A stretch of DNA of 32,365 bases from Chloroflexi bacterium ADurb.Bin180 (GTDB lineage: Bacteria; Chloroflexota; Anaerolineae; UBA2200), in NCBI GenBank assembly GCA_002070215.1, contig MWCV01000028.1, forward strand, positions 1-32,365, in the 5' to 3' direction. The translations under genes and the position numbers were made by a program. Positions 6,429 to 32,163 of the stretch are shown here, piece by piece (within the stretch, counting starts at the first letter, position 1; each line of letters opens with the position of its first letter). The notes under the pieces were generated by a model that did no database searches, had not been told where the DNA came from, and saw nothing but the letters and a program-made list of their open reading frames with translations.

Positions 6429-7289
6429 ATGGTTCCAGAGACGTTGTGCAAGTGGCTGGCGGCGACGGCCCTGCCCTGGGCAGTGATGACCGTGCTGTTT
6501 TGCCGCACGGCCACGAGCGCGGCACCGGCCAGGTCCAGCGTCTGGCTCCCGCTGGCGGTGAGGGCAGAAGCGACGCCAACCGCAACGTCAACCCCGCTGC
6601 CCAGCCCCACCCCGACGACCACGGCCAGCCCGACCCACGCGCCGACCCCAACCGCCACGGCGACCGTTCCTCCAGCAGAGATCCACCACGGCAGCGCCAC
6701 CTACTATGACGCGACCGGCGGCGGGGCGTGCTCCTTCGATCCTTCGCCCGAGGACCTGATGGTGGCGGCGCTCAACGACCGGTACTATGGGGCAGCGGAC
6801 CTGTGCGGGGCCTATGTGGAGGTGACCGGGCCCAAGGGCGTAGTGGTGGTACGGATTGTGGACCTGTGCCCCGGCTGCCTCAAGGTAGGTCTGGACCTGG
6901 ACCTCAGCCGGCAGGCCTTTGAGGCCATTGCTGACCTGGCCAAGGGCCGCGTGGCCGTGACCTGGCGGGTGGTGAGCCCCGAGCTGGACGGCCCCATTGG
7001 CTATCACTTTGCCGATGGCTCGAGCCAGTGGTGGACGGGTATTCAGGTGCGCAACCACCGCAACCCGGTGTTGAGCCTGGAGTACCGCGATGCAAAGGGC
7101 ACCTGGGTGAACGTGCCGCGCAAGGCGTGGAACTATTTCGTGCAGACGTCGCCAGGCATGGGGCCGGGACCCTACGAGCTGCGGGTGAAGGACATCTATG
7201 GCCACCAGATCAGCGACGCGGGCGTGCCGCTGACGCCCGGCGGGACGGTGCAGGGGAGCGCGCAGTTTCCTGGCGCTGACGCGCACTAG
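6429..7289 (+). CDS. Secreted bacterial expansin (DPBB + CBM63-like domains)
   Basis: The 286-residue protein has a signal peptide (about 1-32), a VWLPLAVR motif (38-45), a Thr/Pro linker (49-82) and a two-domain expansin module. Domain 1 (about 86-183) is a double-psi beta-barrel keeping Thr91, Asp145 and Asp158, which align with Thr12, Asp71 and Asp82 of Bacillus subtilis EXLX1. The Tyr73 position is Cys147 in a CPGC pair, with further Cys at 101 and 126. Domain 2 (about 187-280) is CBM63-like, with the cellulose-binding Trp pair 201-202 (SQWWTGIQVRNH) and Trp234 where EXLX1 has Tyr157. Expansins loosen cellulose without hydrolysis. The length fits a two-domain expansin plus linker. Confidence 0.9.
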   Translation: MVPETLCKWLAATALPWAVMTVLFCRTATSAAPARSSVWLPLAVRAEATPTATSTPLPSPTPTTTASPTHAPTPTATATVPPAEIHHGSATYYDATGGGACSFDPSPEDLMVAALNDRYYGAADLCGAYVEVTGPKGVVVVRIVDLCPGCLKVGLDLDLSRQAFEAIADLAKGRVAVTWRVVSPELDGPIGYHFADGSSQWWTGIQVRNHRNPVLSLEYRDAKGTWVNVPRKAWNYFVQTSPGMGPGPYELRVKDIYGHQISDAGVPLTPGGTVQGSAQFPGADAH

Positions 7290-11400: not shown

Positions 11401-14249
11401 ACATCATCGTGGGCAGGATCTTGGGCGATAGCGCCCGGGCGATGCAGCTACCGCTTCTGTCCAGTCTCGAAACCCTGCGGGGCAGTGGATTCGACCGGAC
11501 GCACGCCCTGGCCATCGGCGGCTACGAGGACGGGTCGGGCGACGTGTTCTACGCCAACGCGCGGGACGTGGCGAGCGACCTGACGCGACGGGGGATGAGC
11601 ACGGCGATCATCCAGTGGAGCGACTGGGTGGACGGCCAGTGGACCGTACCCTTCACACACTACGACGCGTTGACGGTGGGCGACGTCGATGGGGACGGAG
11701 TAGACGAGCTGATCATCGCTCAGGATGAGGACAGCAAGATCCGCATCATCGAACCATTGGGAGCCGAGATCGGCCATTTCTACTCGGCGTTCACCCCGTA
11801 CGATGCCCTCGAGGCAGGAGACGTCGACGGAGACGGCCGAGACGAGATCATTGTGGCACGGAATCTTGGCGAATCCTTCGGCGTGCTCACCGTGTACAGG
11901 GGCGACGGTACTTTTGTGGCCGACGTGCCCGTGCCCTTTCGCGAATGGGACGACATGGACGTCGGTGACGTGCTGGGCGATGGCTGGGCCGGAGGCGAGT
12001 GGATCGACGACCGGGGACGAGAGGAGATCGTGCTTATCAGCGAGAGAGACGACCGCGTGAGAATCTATCGGTTGACCGACCTGAACCACCTTGTCCAGGC
12101 CGGGTCGGGGGAGTGGACGGCCAGTGTGAACTTTACGCGCAAGGACCGCATGAGGGTGGGCAACGTACGCAGCGAATGGCCCCGGGATGAGATTGTAGTC
12201 GTGCGCGATGACGACCAGACCATCTACATCTACAACGGTACTGGTACCGAGCTGGCGCGACTGGGAAGAGATGTGGACGGAGACGGCAAGACAGACACCA
12301 GGTACACCCCTTACGATGGGTTTGAGCTGGGTGACCTGGATGGGGACGGTCAAGACTCGATCGTGATGATGTGCGACGACGACAAAAAGCTGTACCTGAT
12401 CAGCGCCAAGCCCATGGCGGGCGCATGGGGCGGGGCCCGCAAGTACACGCGCTTGATGAGTGACTGGTTCTATGGGACGAGGTACACCGGCAGCGAGACA
12501 CGCCACGACGGATTCGCGGTGGGAACGATGGCGCTCGGAACCAGGCCGCGGATCGTCGTGCTGCGCAACCTGAATGGCGCCAGCAGCACCGCGCGGCTCA
12601 TCGTGCCACTGTGGGAGGAGCTCGACCGGTTGGCAAACCGGAGACTGGGCGAGTTGGGGGGCAATCGCAGCATCATCGCCGTCAGCGGGCACGGGAACTG
12701 CGGCGGACCGTCGCCTATCGGGACAGCTTTCGCAGGCTTGTGGGGAACGTTTGCTCAGCATCCGCTCGTGTTCGCCTTCTCGTGCCTCACGGGTAACTAT
12801 GAAGATCGCTGGTGCCTGGACTATACCTTTGGCGATGCCCTGATGGAGCACGGCGCTGCGGTGTTCATCGGCGCGACTGAGGTGTCGGGGCGCAATCAGA
12901 ATACTCCAGCGATGAAAGGGTTCTTTGAGTCGCACTGGGATCCTGACACCACACTGGCGGGCAAGGCCTTTGCACAGTACGAGCGCTTGCGGGCAGACGA
13001 TGGGATTCGCTGGAGATTCTGGGTTGTGGAGTACAACTATTACGGCGACCCCAAGTTCGGCGCGGCCAGCATTCCGGTCCGGGCCGTTGCCGAGACAGCA
13101 ACGGCCGCGGCAGCGGAGCAAGCTCCGCCGCCAACTACGCTGCAGGTGCATGTGCCGATGTATCAGGTCGAGAACGCAGACGGTATTGATGTGGTCAGTC
13201 TGGAGGGTGGCGAGTGGACCTCCGAAGACAACCGACCGCAGGTGCCGATGTATCCAGTCGTGGTTGCAGTGCCGATGGGGTACGAGTTGCAGGACGTGCA
13301 GATGACCTCGCGGGGCAGTCTGTACAGCACAGAGGGGCTGAGTCTGTCCTTCAACGTGCCCATCACCGATGGCGGCAGCCTCGACGAGGCACTGGTCGCG
13401 CTGGCCAGAGCCGAGAGCGAGGGTTGGTATCCCGAGCAAGCATATTCCTGGATGGTCAGGCAGGAGGGCGATGGCTCCAGCTCGCTGCTGCTGACGCTGT
13501 ACCCGTTCCAGTACAACGCGCTTACCACCGGCGTCAGGTTTTACCAGGACATGACATTCAGCCTGGGCTATACCGTTCCGGCGGTCACCATTACGCACTT
13601 GAGCACGGACCGGATCAGCTATGAGCCGGGAGATGTAGTGACGGTATCCATCGGCCTGAGGGTGTCGGAGACGCCGACCGACGGGTACGTCGAAGCAGCC
13701 ATCTACACGCTGGCCGGCGATTACGTCGATGGGCTGCTGGTGCAGGCCCTGCCTGGCCTGACTGGTGCAGCCGAGTTGTCGCCGGTATGGAACAGCAAGG
13801 GGAGCCAGGCAGGGATGTACGTAGTGCGAGCGAAAGTGATCAACGGCGCAGGCGAACTGCAAGACGAGGACAGTTGTTCCTTCCGGCTGGGAACAGTGGG
13901 CGCCGAAGTGACGTTGTTGAGCGCTGCGCCGAACGTGCTCACCAGCGGTCAGTCTACGTACATCACGGTTCAGGCGAGAAACACGGGCACGACGGCTCTC
14001 GATGGCTCTCTGACCATTGACGTGCGACAGGGGAGCCGTGTGGTCAGCAGCGAGCAACACACCTTCACTGGGCTCGGTCCTGGCCTGAGCACCTCGTGGG
14101 GGGTGAGCTGGTCCAGCGAGGACAATGCACCTGGTTCATACGTAGCGACGGGAGCGGTGCGGTATGGGGGCGCCGCTCACTCCAAGAGCGCAGAGATCAC
14201 TGTTCGCGGCGCACACAGCCTGGTCTTGCCCCTGGTGATCAAGAGGTAG
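8496..14249 (+). CDS. Giant secreted gingipain-like (C25) multidomain protein
   Basis: The 1917-residue protein starts at ATG 8496, six bases after GGGAGG. In order it has a signal peptide (about 1-27), a DNRLRE domain (34-198), a Thr/Pro linker (200-279), a CARDB-like domain (280-380), an FN3-like domain (381-478), two Ig-like domains (480-695), a beta domain (696-818), and the first part of a C25 cysteine-peptidase fold (about 839-1048, with LPDIIVGRI). Four or five FG-GAP/VCBS calcium-loop repeats (about 1060-1305, DVDGDGxD) follow. The C25 catalytic part has His1399 (SGHGN), Cys1430 (FSCLTGN) and YGDPKFG near 1516. A C25-propeptide-like domain (1549-1693), two Ig-like domains and a C-terminal VLPLVIKR complete it. 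The His-Cys spacing of 31 resembles gingipain's 33. It is probably an extracellular peptidase or adhesin, and its last 11 bases overlap the convergent ABC gene. Confidence 0.9.
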   Translation: MSPRPALVVLVALLSVCSFVLLVRAESAETALSVVSLPASADCFIDSGRPNENLDGAGVLYVASDINKSTLHTLLRFDLANLGGVHVVSATLHLYPGQSMQGPGNRDVQMANLLNPWEQAKVTWNTRPDTGKPYLQRTVTSTPGWKAWDVTELVLAWLTPGGPNHGLAILPVTTGSWLRSYAERSPQHSLGPYLMVTYTLTTPTPTRTQTRTPTATATRTRTASPSPSATPTATLLPTKTSSSTPTNTRIPTPTATSIQQPTVTQQPTPSPTVTGEPMPVPDLVITDIWLEGTLVCYQVLNQGEGAAPAGHITHLLVQGQLVGQDLIGESLKPGQRLSRRFNYSWVCQGQESALQVCADALSTVVELDEGNNCRDESWRCDTTAPRITAGPAVSEITQTTALVCWDTDEASHSMVRYDRRFDLFGSWMQHPSLVTRHCLRLDDLTRDSAYQYRVESCDAAGNCVHSDPGVFRTLPLAENNKPSLTLHIGDTLSGKARIGADAADDQGIRQVEFWLDDQLVHTAWSPPYGLEWETREMSDGPHTWRVRAIDVAGNVTERERTTQIRNRFDELLSPVHVSFIGLANGQEVWGEVPVEVRVTHDLSSTLLSLQIEVDEVELASWTYPPCGRSSSDPWSRYIPRLPCGRTPLTESSPWNARAEPLHTEHIIEAHAEDQSGNWGHASVRVTVEPPDPVVEVSRMVQRNGTHFDVTISIVNHSEASIRDIVLKDLSLGYQSIGQCSVSIAGEVFRPPSPCPVAYYSQAHTSLITFTYASLAASQGMRVKYSAVPILYTAREAPSEPGIGDLTTLSFAFLGERHELAPVSRWSSSEERAKALHAADYLIMTNPHRFTCPQEDVSKLLSTAAELAMEKSGVLGYLPDDLGARDPHMVRDLIVPGGEWSRQLGPTFTTPHPTSNEAYLLILGETEIVPAFNLDITSWGITWAGGGRTNSIKLTDHFYGDVVGADWLPDIIVGRILGDSARAMQLPLLSSLETLRGSGFDRTHALAIGGYEDGSGDVFYANARDVASDLTRRGMSTAIIQWSDWVDGQWTVPFTHYDALTVGDVDGDGVDELIIAQDEDSKIRIIEPLGAEIGHFYSAFTPYDALEAGDVDGDGRDEIIVARNLGESFGVLTVYRGDGTFVADVPVPFREWDDMDVGDVLGDGWAGGEWIDDRGREEIVLISERDDRVRIYRLTDLNHLVQAGSGEWTASVNFTRKDRMRVGNVRSEWPRDEIVVVRDDDQTIYIYNGTGTELARLGRDVDGDGKTDTRYTPYDGFELGDLDGDGQDSIVMMCDDDKKLYLISAKPMAGAWGGARKYTRLMSDWFYGTRYTGSETRHDGFAVGTMALGTRPRIVVLRNLNGASSTARLIVPLWEELDRLANRRLGELGGNRSIIAVSGHGNCGGPSPIGTAFAGLWGTFAQHPLVFAFSCLTGNYEDRWCLDYTFGDALMEHGAAVFIGATEVSGRNQNTPAMKGFFESHWDPDTTLAGKAFAQYERLRADDGIRWRFWVVEYNYYGDPKFGAASIPVRAVAETATAAAAEQAPPPTTLQVHVPMYQVENADGIDVVSLEGGEWTSEDNRPQVPMYPVVVAVPMGYELQDVQMTSRGSLYSTEGLSLSFNVPITDGGSLDEALVALARAESEGWYPEQAYSWMVRQEGDGSSSLLLTLYPFQYNALTTGVRFYQDMTFSLGYTVPAVTITHLSTDRISYEPGDVVTVSIGLRVSETPTDGYVEAAIYTLAGDYVDGLLVQALPGLTGAAELSPVWNSKGSQAGMYVVRAKVINGAGELQDEDSCSFRLGTVGAEVTLLSAAPNVLTSGQSTYITVQARNTGTTALDGSLTIDVRQGSRVVSSEQHTFTGLGPGLSTSWGVSWSSEDNAPGSYVATGAVRYGGAAHSKSAEITVRGAHSLVLPLVIKR

Positions 14250-23174: not shown

Positions 23175-23204
23175 TTAGCTCCCGGCGCCTGGCGAGTCTA
23201 TAAT
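23175..23204 (+). promoter_or_regulatory. Candidate promoter of the first FxLYD gene
   Basis: A perfect TATAAT (23199-23204) has TTAGCT (23175-23180) 18 bases upstream. Transcription from about 23211 would leave a 25-base leader containing GGAGG. Confidence 0.45.
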
Positions 23205-23235: not shown

Positions 23236-24264
23236 ATGAACTGGCGAGTGATGCGCGGGCCCCTGATCTTGTTGTTGGCTCTCCTGGTGGCGCTCCCGTC
23301 GGCCCCAAGCGGTGCAGAGGGAGCGCTGGCCGAAGTAGAGCTGCTCGGCTCGAGCGCTTTTCTCTCTGCCGGGAGCATCTATGTCGTCGGTGAGGTGCGG
23401 AACACTGGCGCGGCACCGGTGACGCTGGTGCGAGCGGTGGCCACATTCCGCGATGCAGGCAACGCCGTGATCGGCAGCGCTTGCAGCTTTGCGCTGCACG
23501 ACATCCTTGGGGCCGGGCAAGTCTCGCCGTTTCTCATCGAGCGAACCGAGCCCGCCGGCTACGCCTCCTATGAGCTGGCGCTGGACTGGGCGCCGAGCAT
23601 CAGCGGGCCGATGCCGCAGTTGACCTTTGGCCCGGCGCGGCATTACGTGGACAGCTACGGGTTCCACACGTGGGTCGGCGAGGTGAGCAACACCACCGGT
23701 TTTGCGGTTGCCAGTCCCGAGATCGTGCTAACGCTCTACGACGCGGAGGGTGCGGTGCGCAACGTCGAGCACGAGGCGCTGTTCCACGATGTCCTGGCGC
23801 CAGGGCAGAAAGGGCCTTATCAGTTGGTGCTCTTCCAGGGCCCCACGGATTATGCCAGCCTCTCCTTCTCCTCGGACTGCCGCCTGTCGACCACTGCACC
23901 GCCCACGCTGCGCTCGTTGGGGGTCAAACAGAGTGTCGGCCCGGGTGGCGGCCCCCGGTTCACGGGACAAATACAGAATATCGGCAGCAGCCGTGTGTCG
24001 CGCGTGAGGGCCGTGGTGACGCTGTACGATGCGTCAGGGGCGGTGGTCAATGCCAGCTATGACTGGACCGACCCCATCAGCCTGGACCCCGGAGAAGCCT
24101 CCGGTGACGACCGCCTCACCAACGATCACGCCCACCGCCACGCCCACGACGATCGAAACGCTCACGCCGACGGTCACGGCAACAGCGACGATGGAGCGGT
24201 GCCGGGGCTACTTGCCGCTCATCGTTCGGCACGGAGAACGCTGAAAGCAACCGACCGGTACTGA
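23236..24264 (+). CDS. Secreted FxLYD-repeat protein with a frameshifted C-terminus
   Basis: The start is ATG 23236, eight bases after GGAGG; the nominal protein is 342 residues. A signal peptide (about 1-28) precedes two full FxLYD-type beta domains and a partial third. Domain cores contain YVVGEVRNTG, AVATFRDAGNAVIG and VVTLYDASGAVVN. The third domain stops at LDPGEAS, where the others continue with a PF strand of about 20 residues. After that the frame becomes a His/Asp-rich string unlike a protein, while the +1 frame encodes a Thr/Pro linker and YLPLIVR. The gene therefore appears frameshifted near 24092, by an indel, a small deletion in the third domain, or a sequence error. Confidence 0.75.
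   Translation: MNWRVMRGPLILLLALLVALPSAPSGAEGALAEVELLGSSAFLSAGSIYVVGEVRNTGAAPVTLVRAVATFRDAGNAVIGSACSFALHDILGAGQVSPFLIERTEPAGYASYELALDWAPSISGPMPQLTFGPARHYVDSYGFHTWVGEVSNTTGFAVASPEIVLTLYDAEGAVRNVEHEALFHDVLAPGQKGPYQLVLFQGPTDYASLSFSSDCRLSTTAPPTLRSLGVKQSVGPGGGPRFTGQIQNIGSSRVSRVRAVVTLYDASGAVVNASYDWTDPISLDPGEASGDDRLTNDHAHRHAHDDRNAHADGHGNSDDGAVPGLLAAHRSARRTLKATDRY
24092..24244 (+). other. Displaced C-terminal PT linker and YLPLIVR tail, +1 frame
   Basis: In the frame one base ahead of the upstream gene, this stretch reads as a typical Thr/Pro linker (for example SPTITPTATPTTIETLTPTV), then CRGYLPLIVRHGER and TGA at 24242-24244. It is almost certainly the original C-terminus of the FxLYD protein. The linker type and the YLPLIVR motif recur in four other secreted proteins here. 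Confidence 0.7.
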
Positions 24265-24292: not shown

Positions 24293-24838
24293 ATGAAGAA
24301 GGCGGAACGAGCGAACCTGAGCCAGCTCATCGAGTCGATGGGTTTTGCCGACTGGGCCTGGATCGAGCCAAAGGACATTCAGGTGGCGCAGTGGGTGCGG
24401 CTCAAGTGCATGTTCGGCTGCCGTGAGTACGGGCGCAACGCCAGTTGCCCGCCGAACCTGCCATCGGTGGAGGAGTGTCGCCAGGCGATCGGCGAGTACC
24501 GGAGTGCGGCAATCCTGCACTTTCCCAAGAAACTGGCCAAGCCGGAGGACAGGCACGACTGGAGCAAAGAGGTCAACGCACGTCTGCTCGAACTGGAAAA
24601 GGCCGTGTTTCTGGCAGGCTACTACAAGGCTTTTTTGCTGGCAATGGATTCCTGCGCCCTGTGCGGCACCTGCGCCGGCGAGCGAACCGCGTGCAAGAAC
24701 CCGCGCGCTGCCAGACCCTCGCCAGAGGCAATGGGGGTGGACGTTTTCGCTACAGCCCGGGCTGCGGGGTTTCCCATCGAGGTCCTGCGCGACACAAAAC
24801 AGGAAATGAACCGCTATGCGCTTCTGCTCATCGAGTGA
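24293..24838 (+). CDS. DUF2284 predicted metal-binding protein
   Basis: The 181-residue protein starts at ATG 24293. Cysteine motifs [16 protein letters not shown] near the middle and [17 protein letters not shown] near the C-terminus match DUF2284, predicted to bind metal or an iron-sulphur cluster. A conserved [12 protein letters not shown] stretch follows. The family's function is unknown. It lies between two FxLYD surface-protein genes, and its stop touches a possible GTG start of the next. Confidence 0.88.
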
Positions 24839-24858
24839 CCAGTGCTGAGGGCCGGGGC

Positions 24859-26700
24859 GTGAGACAGCGGGGACCTTCGAAGGTCAGTGCCTGGCTGTTT
24901 GTCGGCTGGGCCTGCCTAGTGCTGTGCCTGACGGTGGGCGGCCCCCGCGCCAATGCCGATGCGCCGTGGAAAGCGCACCTGCCCTGCATCGTGCGGCGGG
25001 TCGACGTGCAGCGGTTTGTCCCGCTGGCCACGGTGACCCCGACCCGAACAGTTCGGCCGACAACATCGGCGACGGCAACACGGACAGCTACGGCCACGGC
25101 GGGGGCCACCGCGTCAGTCACGCCAACGGCCACGAACAGCCCCACGCCGACGGCCACGGCTAGTGCTACACCCGGCAACACCCCGACCACCAGTCCTACC
25201 CTGTCAGTCACACCAACAGCCAGCCCGACGCACACGCCGAGTCCTACCCTGTCAGTCACACCGACTGCCAGCGCGACGAACACGCCGAGTTCGACCCTGT
25301 CAGTCACACCAAGCGCCAGCCCGACGCACACGCCGACGAACACACCCAGCCCGACGTTGTCGGCCACGCCAACTGCCAGCCCGACCCGTACCTCGACGAA
25401 CACGCCGAGCCCGACGCTCTCGGCAACACCAACTGCCAGCCACACTCCCACACCGACGAGTACGCCGAGTCCGACGCTGTCGGCGACAGCCACGGCCAGT
25501 GCAACGCCTACCAGGACCGTAACGGAGACTCCTAGCCCCACCGCGACCAGCAGCCCCAGCCGAACGCCGACGTCTACCTCGAGCGCAACGGCAACTGTGA
25601 CGCCGACCGCCAGCCGCACTTTTACGCCGACCAGCACTGCCAGCCACACACCGACTGCCACGAGTACAGCCAGCCTCACTCCGAGCCGCAGCGCTACGCC
25701 GACCCATACAGCGACGAGCTCTCCCAGTGCCACGGGCACGCCCACGCGCACAGTCACGCCCAGTCACACTGCCACCAGGAGTCCTACCCCGAGTGCGACG
25801 CCGACCGTGCCGACAACGGGAGTAGTCGTTCGCAGCTCGAGCCTGTACCGCGAGAACGGATATATGCACCTCGTCGGCGAGGTGCGCAACGATTCGCCGG
25901 ACAACGTCGAGCTGGTGCTGGTGTCGGCTACCTACCTGGATGGACTGGGCGGGGTGCTGGGCACCGGTGCTACCTACACCGAGCACACCATTCTGGCCCC
26001 GGGGCAGCGCTCGCCCTTTGACGTGATGGATCTCGACCAGCCCGCTATGGCGGACTGGCGTCTGGTGGTGACTTGCACGGTCATTCCGGACGACCCCGTG
26101 CAGCAACTCACCCTCCGCGGGATGACGAGCTGGGTCGACGATGATGGCTGGCACTATTATGTGGGTGAGGTGACCAACAGCAGCATCGCCAACGTGCGCT
26201 GGGTAAGGGCCGTGCTGACGTTCTACGACCGCAGCAGCACCGTGGTGAACGTAGCCAGCACAGCGGTGCTGGCCGACGTTCTGCTGCCGGGTCAGAGCGC
26301 GCCGTTCCGGGCCATCGTGGGTGCCGGGCCGGTGGAGGGCACGCTCTTGATGGTGTCCACCGATGCCCAGCGCACGTCCGAGTCCCCGGTGATTCTCGTG
26401 GCGGCTGATCCGGAGCAGGAGGTCGATGGCAACGGCTGGCAGCACATCCGGGGCAGGGTGGTCAACCCCGGCAAGACCACGGTGAGCGTGGTGCAGGCCG
26501 TGGTGACGCTCCTGGATCCCGCGGAGAACGTGATTAACTGCGACAGCGCCTTTACCGTGCCGTCGACTCTCGGGGCAGAGGAGAGCGCTCCGTTCGACGT
26601 GGTCTTTCGGGACCACTGGGGAGGCTGGGTGTTGTACCGCGTGACGCCGTTCGGTCAGGACCTGGGAATGAGGCGGGCGGGGCGAGGGGCGCTGCCCTAG
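24859..26700 (+). CDS. Secreted protein: long PT linker plus three FxLYD domains
   Basis: The 613-residue protein starts at GTG 24859 (GAGGG upstream); GTG 24835, overlapping the upstream stop, is an alternative. A signal peptide is followed at once by AHLPCIVRR and RFVPLA, then a Thr/Ser/Pro linker of about 265 residues (57-320). Three FxLYD-type beta domains follow (about 322-413, 415-505, 506-605), with [23 protein letters not shown] and [11 protein letters not shown] cores. The upstream paralogue has the same parts in the reverse order. It probably projects from the cell surface. The linker is likely O-glycosylated, which is inference from composition. Confidence 0.85.
25192..25500 (+). 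repeat. Tandem 48-60 bp coding repeats in the PT linker
   Basis: Six imperfect copies of a unit built on [16 protein letters not shown] (48 bp) or a 60-bp form with an added TNTP lie head to tail. The copies differ mostly at the third base and in the final residues. Unequal exchange is the likely source, so linker length may vary between strains. Confidence 0.7.
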
Positions 26701-30270: not shown

Positions 30271-32163
30271 CTACCATCCCCAGAGCTGGCACCTCGAGAT
30301 ACGGATATAGTCCACGTACAGGTTGGTCCAGGCGCCCCAGAAGGGCTGAATGGTCGGGTTGCCGATATAGATACTGGACGGACGCACGGACGAGATGGTG
30401 CTGCCAACGAGCACGTCGTCCACGTACATTGTGTACAGATTGCCGTGCTCCAGGGTGATGCGCAGAGTATGCCAGGTAGTGTCACCCGGAATACCGGTCC
30501 AGACCACCTTGTTGCGGAACATCTTGATGTCAAAGCGGAAGATGCCGCCGGCGGGGTCCACGACGTGGTGAATGTTGAGCATATCCTCGATTCCGGCAGG
30601 CAGGTCGGTTGAGGCCGGCACGCGGGTACCGTCAAAGGCCCACGAGTTGAGGGCGATGGTGGTGCCGTAGGCACTCAGGTCGGTGTAGCGGAAGCGGGCT
30701 TCGAGGGCAAAGTCATCTCCGGCACCCTCGAACAGGTCGTTGCGCCAGACCATCGGGAAGCGGTCATAGTTGCCCACTACCCACTGGTGGATCACGCTGC
30801 TGCTGACCTCCTGCTGACCGCCAGCCAGGCTGACCGTCCACCCCGGGAGTGCGGGGTCGAGGAACTCCTCGTCAAAGGTATAGCCCCAGGTCAGGCAGCG
30901 CTCGCTGCGGTGCCGCATTAGCAGCGGGACATAGAGGTCCTGCGGCGTTGGCGTGGCCGTCGCGGTAGGCGTTCTGGTGGCGGTGCTGGTCGGGGTCGCC
31001 GTAGCAGTAGCCGTGGACGTGGGAGTGTGGGTGCTCGTAGGCGTGTAGGTGGCGGTGTTGGTGGGCGTATGAGTGGGCGTATTGGTCCGGGTTGGCGTCG
31101 CTGTCGGCGTCGACGTTTGGGTCGGCGTTGCCGTTGGCGTATAGGTAAAGGTCGGTGTGGCGGTTGGAGTAGGGGTCAAGGTGCTGGTCGGCGTCGCAGT
31201 AGGTGTCGGCGTCGAGGTCAGAGTAGGCGTCGGCGTCGCCGTCGGCGTGGCAGTGTTCGTTGGCGTCGGCGTGACGGTGGGCGTGTTGGTGCTGGTTGGA
31301 GTAGCCGTTGGCGTCGGCGTCGGCGGCGGGACGTACAGGATCACCAGCTTGGGTCGGTGCTCCAGCGAGCCATCAAAGTTCACATCGTCGGCCGAGTCGA
31401 ACCAGATGGTCTGTGTGTCAGTGATCGACTGGTGCAAAGCATGTAACGAGACGCCATAGTTGGGCTGAGAGCCGTTGTACCAGGAGCGCACCAGGTCAGT
31501 CACCGGGAATTCGTACCAATGGTACACGGTCTCGACCGGCACGACAGCCAGGGGCACCTGCGAGCGGTCGGCGATGCCGTTGCAGCCGCCGATGGTCCAC
31601 GGGCTGATACCCTCCCACCACCACCAGGTGGCCTGGGTGCTCACCCAGGGGCGCTTCACATAGAACATCGACACGTCAATGTGAAAATCCGGCTCGCCAC
31701 TAAAACGTTCGGCAAAAAGGTGAATGCCGGCGCAGATGATCTTGGAGCCGGGCGGAATGGGCGACAGGTCGAACTTGAGCAGGGCCGAATCCTTGGCCTT
31801 GTAGCCGAGGTGCAGGTACCAGGTGGAGGAAAAGTTGAGCTCGGGAAAATCGGCGCGCAGCGTGGTATCTTCGGTGCCATAGTAGCCGTCAAAGCCCTGC
31901 TGCAAGACCATCAGTGCGGCGCCAGGCTCCGGCGTGCCGTCGCAGGGCAGGGGCTGAGGGGTGAGCGTCGGCCAGGGGCCGAGATACTCTTTGGTGGCCC
32001 GGGGAGCAGATGGATCAAGCGAATCGGGCGTGGCCGGGGCGGACTGCGGCCTCGGGAGCTGCTGCTGGGGAAGGGCCATGGCGTCGAAACCAGGCGAGGC
32101 AGCCAGATAGAGAGCAATCAGGAGGCCAAGCAATATCAACAGACGGGCTGGATAGCGGACCAT
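30271..32163 (-). CDS. Secreted DNRLRE, PT-linker, lectin-like protein
   Basis: The 630-residue protein starts at ATG 32163 with a perfect AAGGAGGGG upstream. A signal peptide (about 1-28) and a Pro/Gln-rich spacer lead to a DNRLRE-type domain (about 80-280; RADFPELNFSSTWYLHLGY early, HRPKLVILYV at the end). A Thr/Pro linker follows (281-408), then LYVPLLMR (410-417), and a concanavalin/LamG-like beta-sandwich (about 425-627) with a YVDDVLVGS core. It is probably a cell-surface adhesin or carbohydrate-binding protein. It shares the DNRLRE type and the motif with the giant peptidase at 8496. Confidence 0.88.
   Translation of the reverse strand: MVRYPARLLILLGLLIALYLAASPGFDAMALPQQQLPRPQSAPATPDSLDPSAPRATKEYLGPWPTLTPQPLPCDGTPEPGAALMVLQQGFDGYYGTEDTTLRADFPELNFSSTWYLHLGYKAKDSALLKFDLSPIPPGSKIICAGIHLFAERFSGEPDFHIDVSMFYVKRPWVSTQATWWWWEGISPWTIGGCNGIADRSQVPLAVVPVETVYHWYEFPVTDLVRSWYNGSQPNYGVSLHALHQSITDTQTIWFDSADDVNFDGSLEHRPKLVILYVPPPTPTPTATPTSTNTPTVTPTPTNTATPTATPTPTLTSTPTPTATPTSTLTPTPTATPTFTYTPTATPTQTSTPTATPTRTNTPTHTPTNTATYTPTSTHTPTSTATATATPTSTATRTPTATATPTPQDLYVPLLMRHRSERCLTWGYTFDEEFLDPALPGWTVSLAGGQQEVSSSVIHQWVVGNYDRFPMVWRNDLFEGAGDDFALEARFRYTDLSAYGTTIALNSWAFDGTRVPASTDLPAGIEDMLNIHHVVDPAGGIFRFDIKMFRNKVVWTGIPGDTTWHTLRITLEHGNLYTMYVDDVLVGSTISSVRPSSIYIGNPTIQPFWGAWTNLYVDYIRISRCQLWGW
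30950..31327 (-). repeat. Low-complexity Thr/Pro linker-coding DNA
   Basis: This stretch encodes runs of TPT, TAT and TST in the secreted protein above and has no further substructure I can name. Its complementary strand contains artificial Val/Gly-rich reading frames that are not genes. Confidence 0.6.

Follow-up and report, generated by a model that had tools for sequence, protein, structure and literature searches.

Proteins built from FxLYD domains are covered by the NCBIfam model NF038353 (FxLYD_dom; curated cut-off 23 bits), and NCBIfam already holds the YLP-box as a putative sorting motif (NF050076, NF053834). Our search of a literature collection on FxLYD, the YLPLV motif or the YLP-box found no paper there. 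Bacterial pseudogenes that arise by out-of-frame deletion form the other relevant background, and errors in assembly are documented as giving rise to spurious pseudogenes (PMC11017572), although metagenome-assembled genomes were not assessed in that work.

Here we describe a gene in the window, which is the whole 32,365-nucleotide contig analysed (contig C28 of a 3.13-Mb draft assembly in 170 contigs, from an uncultured member of the Chloroflexota). The gene appears to have encoded a secreted protein with three FxLYD domains, and it is quite likely that a single deletion of 3n+2 bases has cut off the end of domain 3 and left the C-terminal tail out of frame. With ordinary bacterial pseudogenes caused by out-of-frame deletion it shares a single short deletion of non-3n length, an intact syntenic ortholog and a recognisable stranded 3′ coding sequence; it differs from them in nothing beyond the particular gene. 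This is ordinary gene damage, probably recent, and not a new mechanism.

A change of reading frame within an FxLYD protein gene

The open reading frame at 23236-24264 starts with an ATG at 23236 preceded by GGAGG, and a further in-frame ATG lies at 23203. In frame 0 (the codon phase of 24001) the translation runs ...NASYDWTDPISLDPGEAS-GDDRLTNDHAHRHAHDDRNAHADGHGNSDDGAVPGLLAAHRSARRTLKATDRY, and in frame +1 (the phase of 24002) it runs ...EKPPVTTASPTITPTATPTTIETLTPTVTATATMERCRGYLPLIVRHGER. Past the residues LDPGEAS (24097-24102), frame 0 continues as GDDRLTNDHAHRHAHDDRNAHADGHGNSDDG... and meets no stop for about 54 further codons, whereas frame +1 gives PPVTTASPTITPTATPTTIETLTPTVTATATMERCRGYLPLIVRHGER up to its own TGA. 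The resulting features are listed in Table 1.

Table 1. Parts of the disrupted FxLYD protein gene, in window coordinates
Feature	Position	Strand	Remarks
Intact gene part	23236..24099	+	signal-peptide-like N-terminus (MNWRVMRGPLILLLALLVALPSAPSGA), FxLYD domains 1 and 2, strands 1-4 of domain 3
Deletion junction GCCTCCG	24097..24103	+	located by sequence against the ortholog; candidate 5-nt CCTCC microhomology, repeat-mediated origin inferred
Stranded original C-terminus, +1 frame	24098..24244	+	PPVTTASPT... P/T-rich linker, YLPLIVRHGER, TGA 24242
YLPLIVR, YLP-box-like C-terminal motif, +1 frame	24209..24229	+	class-wide pattern YLPL[VIL]x[RK]; related to NF050076/NF053834
Out-of-frame His/Asp-rich replacement tail, primary frame	24103..24264	+	ends TGA 24262

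The preliminary description of this DNA had proposed that a frameshift separates an FxLYD protein from its P/T linker and YLPLIVR tail, that the primary frame degenerates into a His/Asp-rich string, and that the +1 frame yields the linker and motif and ends in TGA. All of this holds, and the frame break is genuine. Codon log-odds trained on the window's other genes favor frame 0 as far as 24090, and +1 over 24122-24181. When aligned with the tail of the same-genus ortholog described below, the +1 tail attains a BLOSUM62 score of 77, a value reached by 0 of 500 composition-preserving shuffles (mean 46, maximum 76). The frame-0 tail scores 21, in line with its shuffles (mean 19). Its His-rich string arises when ACG, CCC and ACC codons (threonine and proline) of the linker are read in the wrong phase, and is no feature in its own right. 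The interval first assigned to the frameshift, 24061-24264, correctly delimits the affected stretch, but the coding frame itself shifts by +1 at about 24097-24103.

A complete syntenic ortholog in UBA2200

A syntenic ortholog is present in Anaerolineales bacterium UBA2200, a member of the same genus (contig DCVA01000040.1). The gene order NUDIX, CxxCxxCC protein, FxLYD protein, DUF2284 protein and second FxLYD protein is common to both genomes, and at the corresponding position UBA2200 carries a 407-codon gene that encodes a full domain 3, a P/T linker and YLPLLLRLATR* in a single frame. Comparison of the locus in related strains had been suggested at the outset; in this same-genus genome the complete architecture lies in one open frame. 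The intact part of the window gene is 55-57% identical to the ortholog. Divergence is 0.63 at third codon positions versus 0.33 and 0.31 at the others, evidence that the domains were formerly under purifying selection but no means of dating the deletion.

A genome-contig search with a single protein recovered no further orthologs, one with an alignment recovered only UBA2200 and distant relatives but no second genome of the species, and a search of viral contigs recovered none. Among the more distant homologs, the G057 protein stops directly after a complete domain 3 and has no tail. As a separate observation, the mechanically called frame of the second FxLYD protein (24445-26700, + strand) extends upstream over the DUF2284 gene, in a different frame; its real start is probably near 24860-24883, and the same spurious extension occurs in UBA2200.

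The missing end of domain 3

The window protein matches NF038353 with 77.7 bits in three stretches above the cut-off, as is also seen for the ortholog and paralogs, and therefore belongs among the FxLYD domain-containing proteins. It differs in that its domain 3 matches only model positions 2-49 of 71. In the ortholog the third domain is the top-scoring stretch and extends to position 59. Complete third domains are also found in four further homologous three-domain proteins, such that the domain end is present in five of the five comparison proteins, paralogs included, and absent from the window protein.

The ortholog was modelled with AlphaFold2 (mean pLDDT 79 for the whole protein, 87-97 across domain 3), which predicts that domain 3 closes with strands 297-303 and 313-317. 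The segment missing from the window protein, approximately residues 300-317 in ortholog numbering, would therefore comprise most of the first of these strands and all of the second. The domain had been suspected to lack its last strand; by this model it lacks the last two. When this model was searched against PDB folds, the matches were all beta-sandwiches with low TM scores, among them arrestins, transglutaminases and complement C5.

A one-base sequencing error, one form of the error originally offered as an alternative, is refuted by these results because a single base would not remove about 18-20 residues that include two beta-strands. A programmed frameshift is likewise rejected, as the missing strands would stay missing.

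Size and origin of the probable deletion

Because the tail is displaced by +1, the net loss must be 3n+2 bases. The simplest alignment, in which AS is placed with AS and PP with PP, gives a deletion of 59 nucleotides in ortholog coordinates that removes about FDVLFPEAYQGWTSYGLY. A deletion of 62 nucleotides would fit if linker or loop lengths differed, giving a range of about 59-62. These alignment-based values, like the breakpoints, are approximate because the nearest ortholog is only 55-57% identical. The earlier proposal of a deletion of about 20 residues together with an out-of-frame change is borne out by the syntenic ortholog, and it can be simplified: a single 3n+2 deletion would account for both the lost domain end and the change of frame, so no second event is needed, although two events are possible.

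Read in frame 0, the junction sequence GCCTCCG gives A-S, and read in frame +1 it gives P-P; these are the residues that the ortholog has on the two sides of the gap, in GEKAS and YPPTEL. The CCTCC overlap suggests slippage between short repeats. The event was probably recent, given that the +1 tail has kept an open frame and can still be recognised.

The same lack of decay would also be predicted if the gene were really intact and a metagenome-type assembly, or a mixture of strains within it, had lost about 60 bases. This larger form of the error alternative survives the refutation of a one-base error. The genome is a draft in many contigs, only one genome of the species can be compared, and assembly errors are known to create pseudogenes of this kind, with the limit on scope noted above. 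However, the loss is a clean deletion of about 60 nucleotides with no long repeat at its junction, unlike a typical single-base sequencing error, and the window genes with long UBA2200 matches show no further frame break. These genes align collinearly and in one frame each, which argues that the assembly is not generally indel-ridden. We therefore regard an assembly artefact as unlikely, and the deletion as probably located in the organism.

Phase variation had also been raised as an alternative. By this account, or by that of a programmed +1 frameshift, the gene would give both tailed and tail-less forms of the protein, and the preservation of the tail in frame +1 and the openness of both frames over the junction are in keeping with it. 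Yet a frameshifted product would still be without the end of domain 3, and the UBA2200 ortholog has everything in one frame. Tandem-repeat and repeat scans found no slippage-prone, frame-changing tract near the break: the only tandem repeat has a 6-bp unit, and direct repeats in the linker are spaced 18, 24 and 39 nucleotides apart, so the units and spacings nearby are all multiples of three. We consider such switching extremely improbable. There is equally little chance that the species population switches between tailed (sorted) and tail-less FxLYD forms, with the deletion allele as one maintained variant.

Somewhat less remote, but still highly unlikely, is that the gene has been functionally remodelled, with two complete domains and the new His/Asp-rich tail kept and used. 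Frame 0 does remain open to 24262, and the G057 protein, a more distant homolog, provides at least one case in which the tail can be dispensed with. Nevertheless, the new tail resembles the ortholog tail no better than shuffled sequences do, and it starts in the middle of a beta-sandwich.

Our preferred explanation, a single disruptive deletion, would proceed as follows. The ancestral protein was presumably secreted, with three FxLYD domains, then a linker rich in P and T, and a C-terminus of the YLP-box-like kind. A single 3n+2 deletion of about 59-62 bases, probably by slippage between short CCTCC repeats, would have taken away the two final beta-strands of domain 3 and joined the remainder in the wrong frame, such that a meaningless His/Asp-rich tail is appended and the linker and YLPLIVR would never be translated. 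The expected product has a misfolded third domain and is without the putative surface-sorting tail, so that the gene has probably been inactivated or cut back to domains 1 and 2. Loss of function is what we would expect, but a truncated two-domain product could still work.

In itself the finding is of little importance, as one more surface-protein gene has been hit by a small deletion. It does serve as a warning for annotation, since automatic calling would give a protein of 342 residues whose His/Asp-rich tail is spurious. In addition, a same-genus pair with and without a YLP-box-like tail is usable for testing the putative sorting motif.

The displaced tail and the YLP-box

Within the class, many genomes have more peptides of the type YLPL[VIL]x[RK] than matches to the reversed control (e.g. 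57 versus 3, 30 versus 5 and 21 versus 1). Among matches in fetched stretches with at least 60 open codons upstream, the motif starts within 20 residues of the stop in 38 of 61, a figure that is no unbiased class average because the stretches come mostly from motif-rich genomes and a few are duplicated under different locus ids. The C-terminal consensus of the class is [RK][VIL]YLPLV[LM][RK], followed mostly by 0-3 residues, and class members that share it have NF050076 scores close to the 15-bit cut-off or slightly over it. We had considered the YLPLxxR tail as an undescribed sorting signal, a candidate that was dropped because NCBIfam already has the YLP-box.

The window sequence resembles the YLP-box in that its +1 frame closes, C-terminally, with YLPLIVR plus HGER. 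It differs in being out of frame, in having four residues after the motif, and in its lack of a model match: searches of the window and ortholog tails against NF050076 and NF053834 reported none at E≤10. The motif is not at the extreme C-terminus of the translated window protein, lying instead in frame +1; in the ortholog it is C-terminal and in frame. The tail is thus likened to the YLP-box by consensus only, and its sorting function is putative.

Across the class, genomes differ widely in how many YLPL[VIL]x[RK]-like peptides they carry, from none to over 50 (e.g. G026, G056, G015, G036), and some copies are internal, with further domains after them. Related peptides occur elsewhere in the window. 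The YLP-box-like VLPLVIKR stands at the C-terminus of a 1940-residue protein (14226-14249, +), YVPLLMR follows a P/T linker inside the 30271-32163 protein (30914-30933, -), and WLPLAVR and HLPCIVR (in 6429-7289, +, and 24883-26700, +) come directly after signal-like segments and before P/T linkers. From these copies, YLP-box-like motifs also occur N-terminally or internally beside linkers, and not at C-termini only. The 30271-32163 (-) protein is a DNRLRE-domain protein whose residues 21-278 are 79% identical to UBA2200, whereas residues 280-630, past the P/T linker, are without a clear counterpart in the syntenic UBA2200 region.
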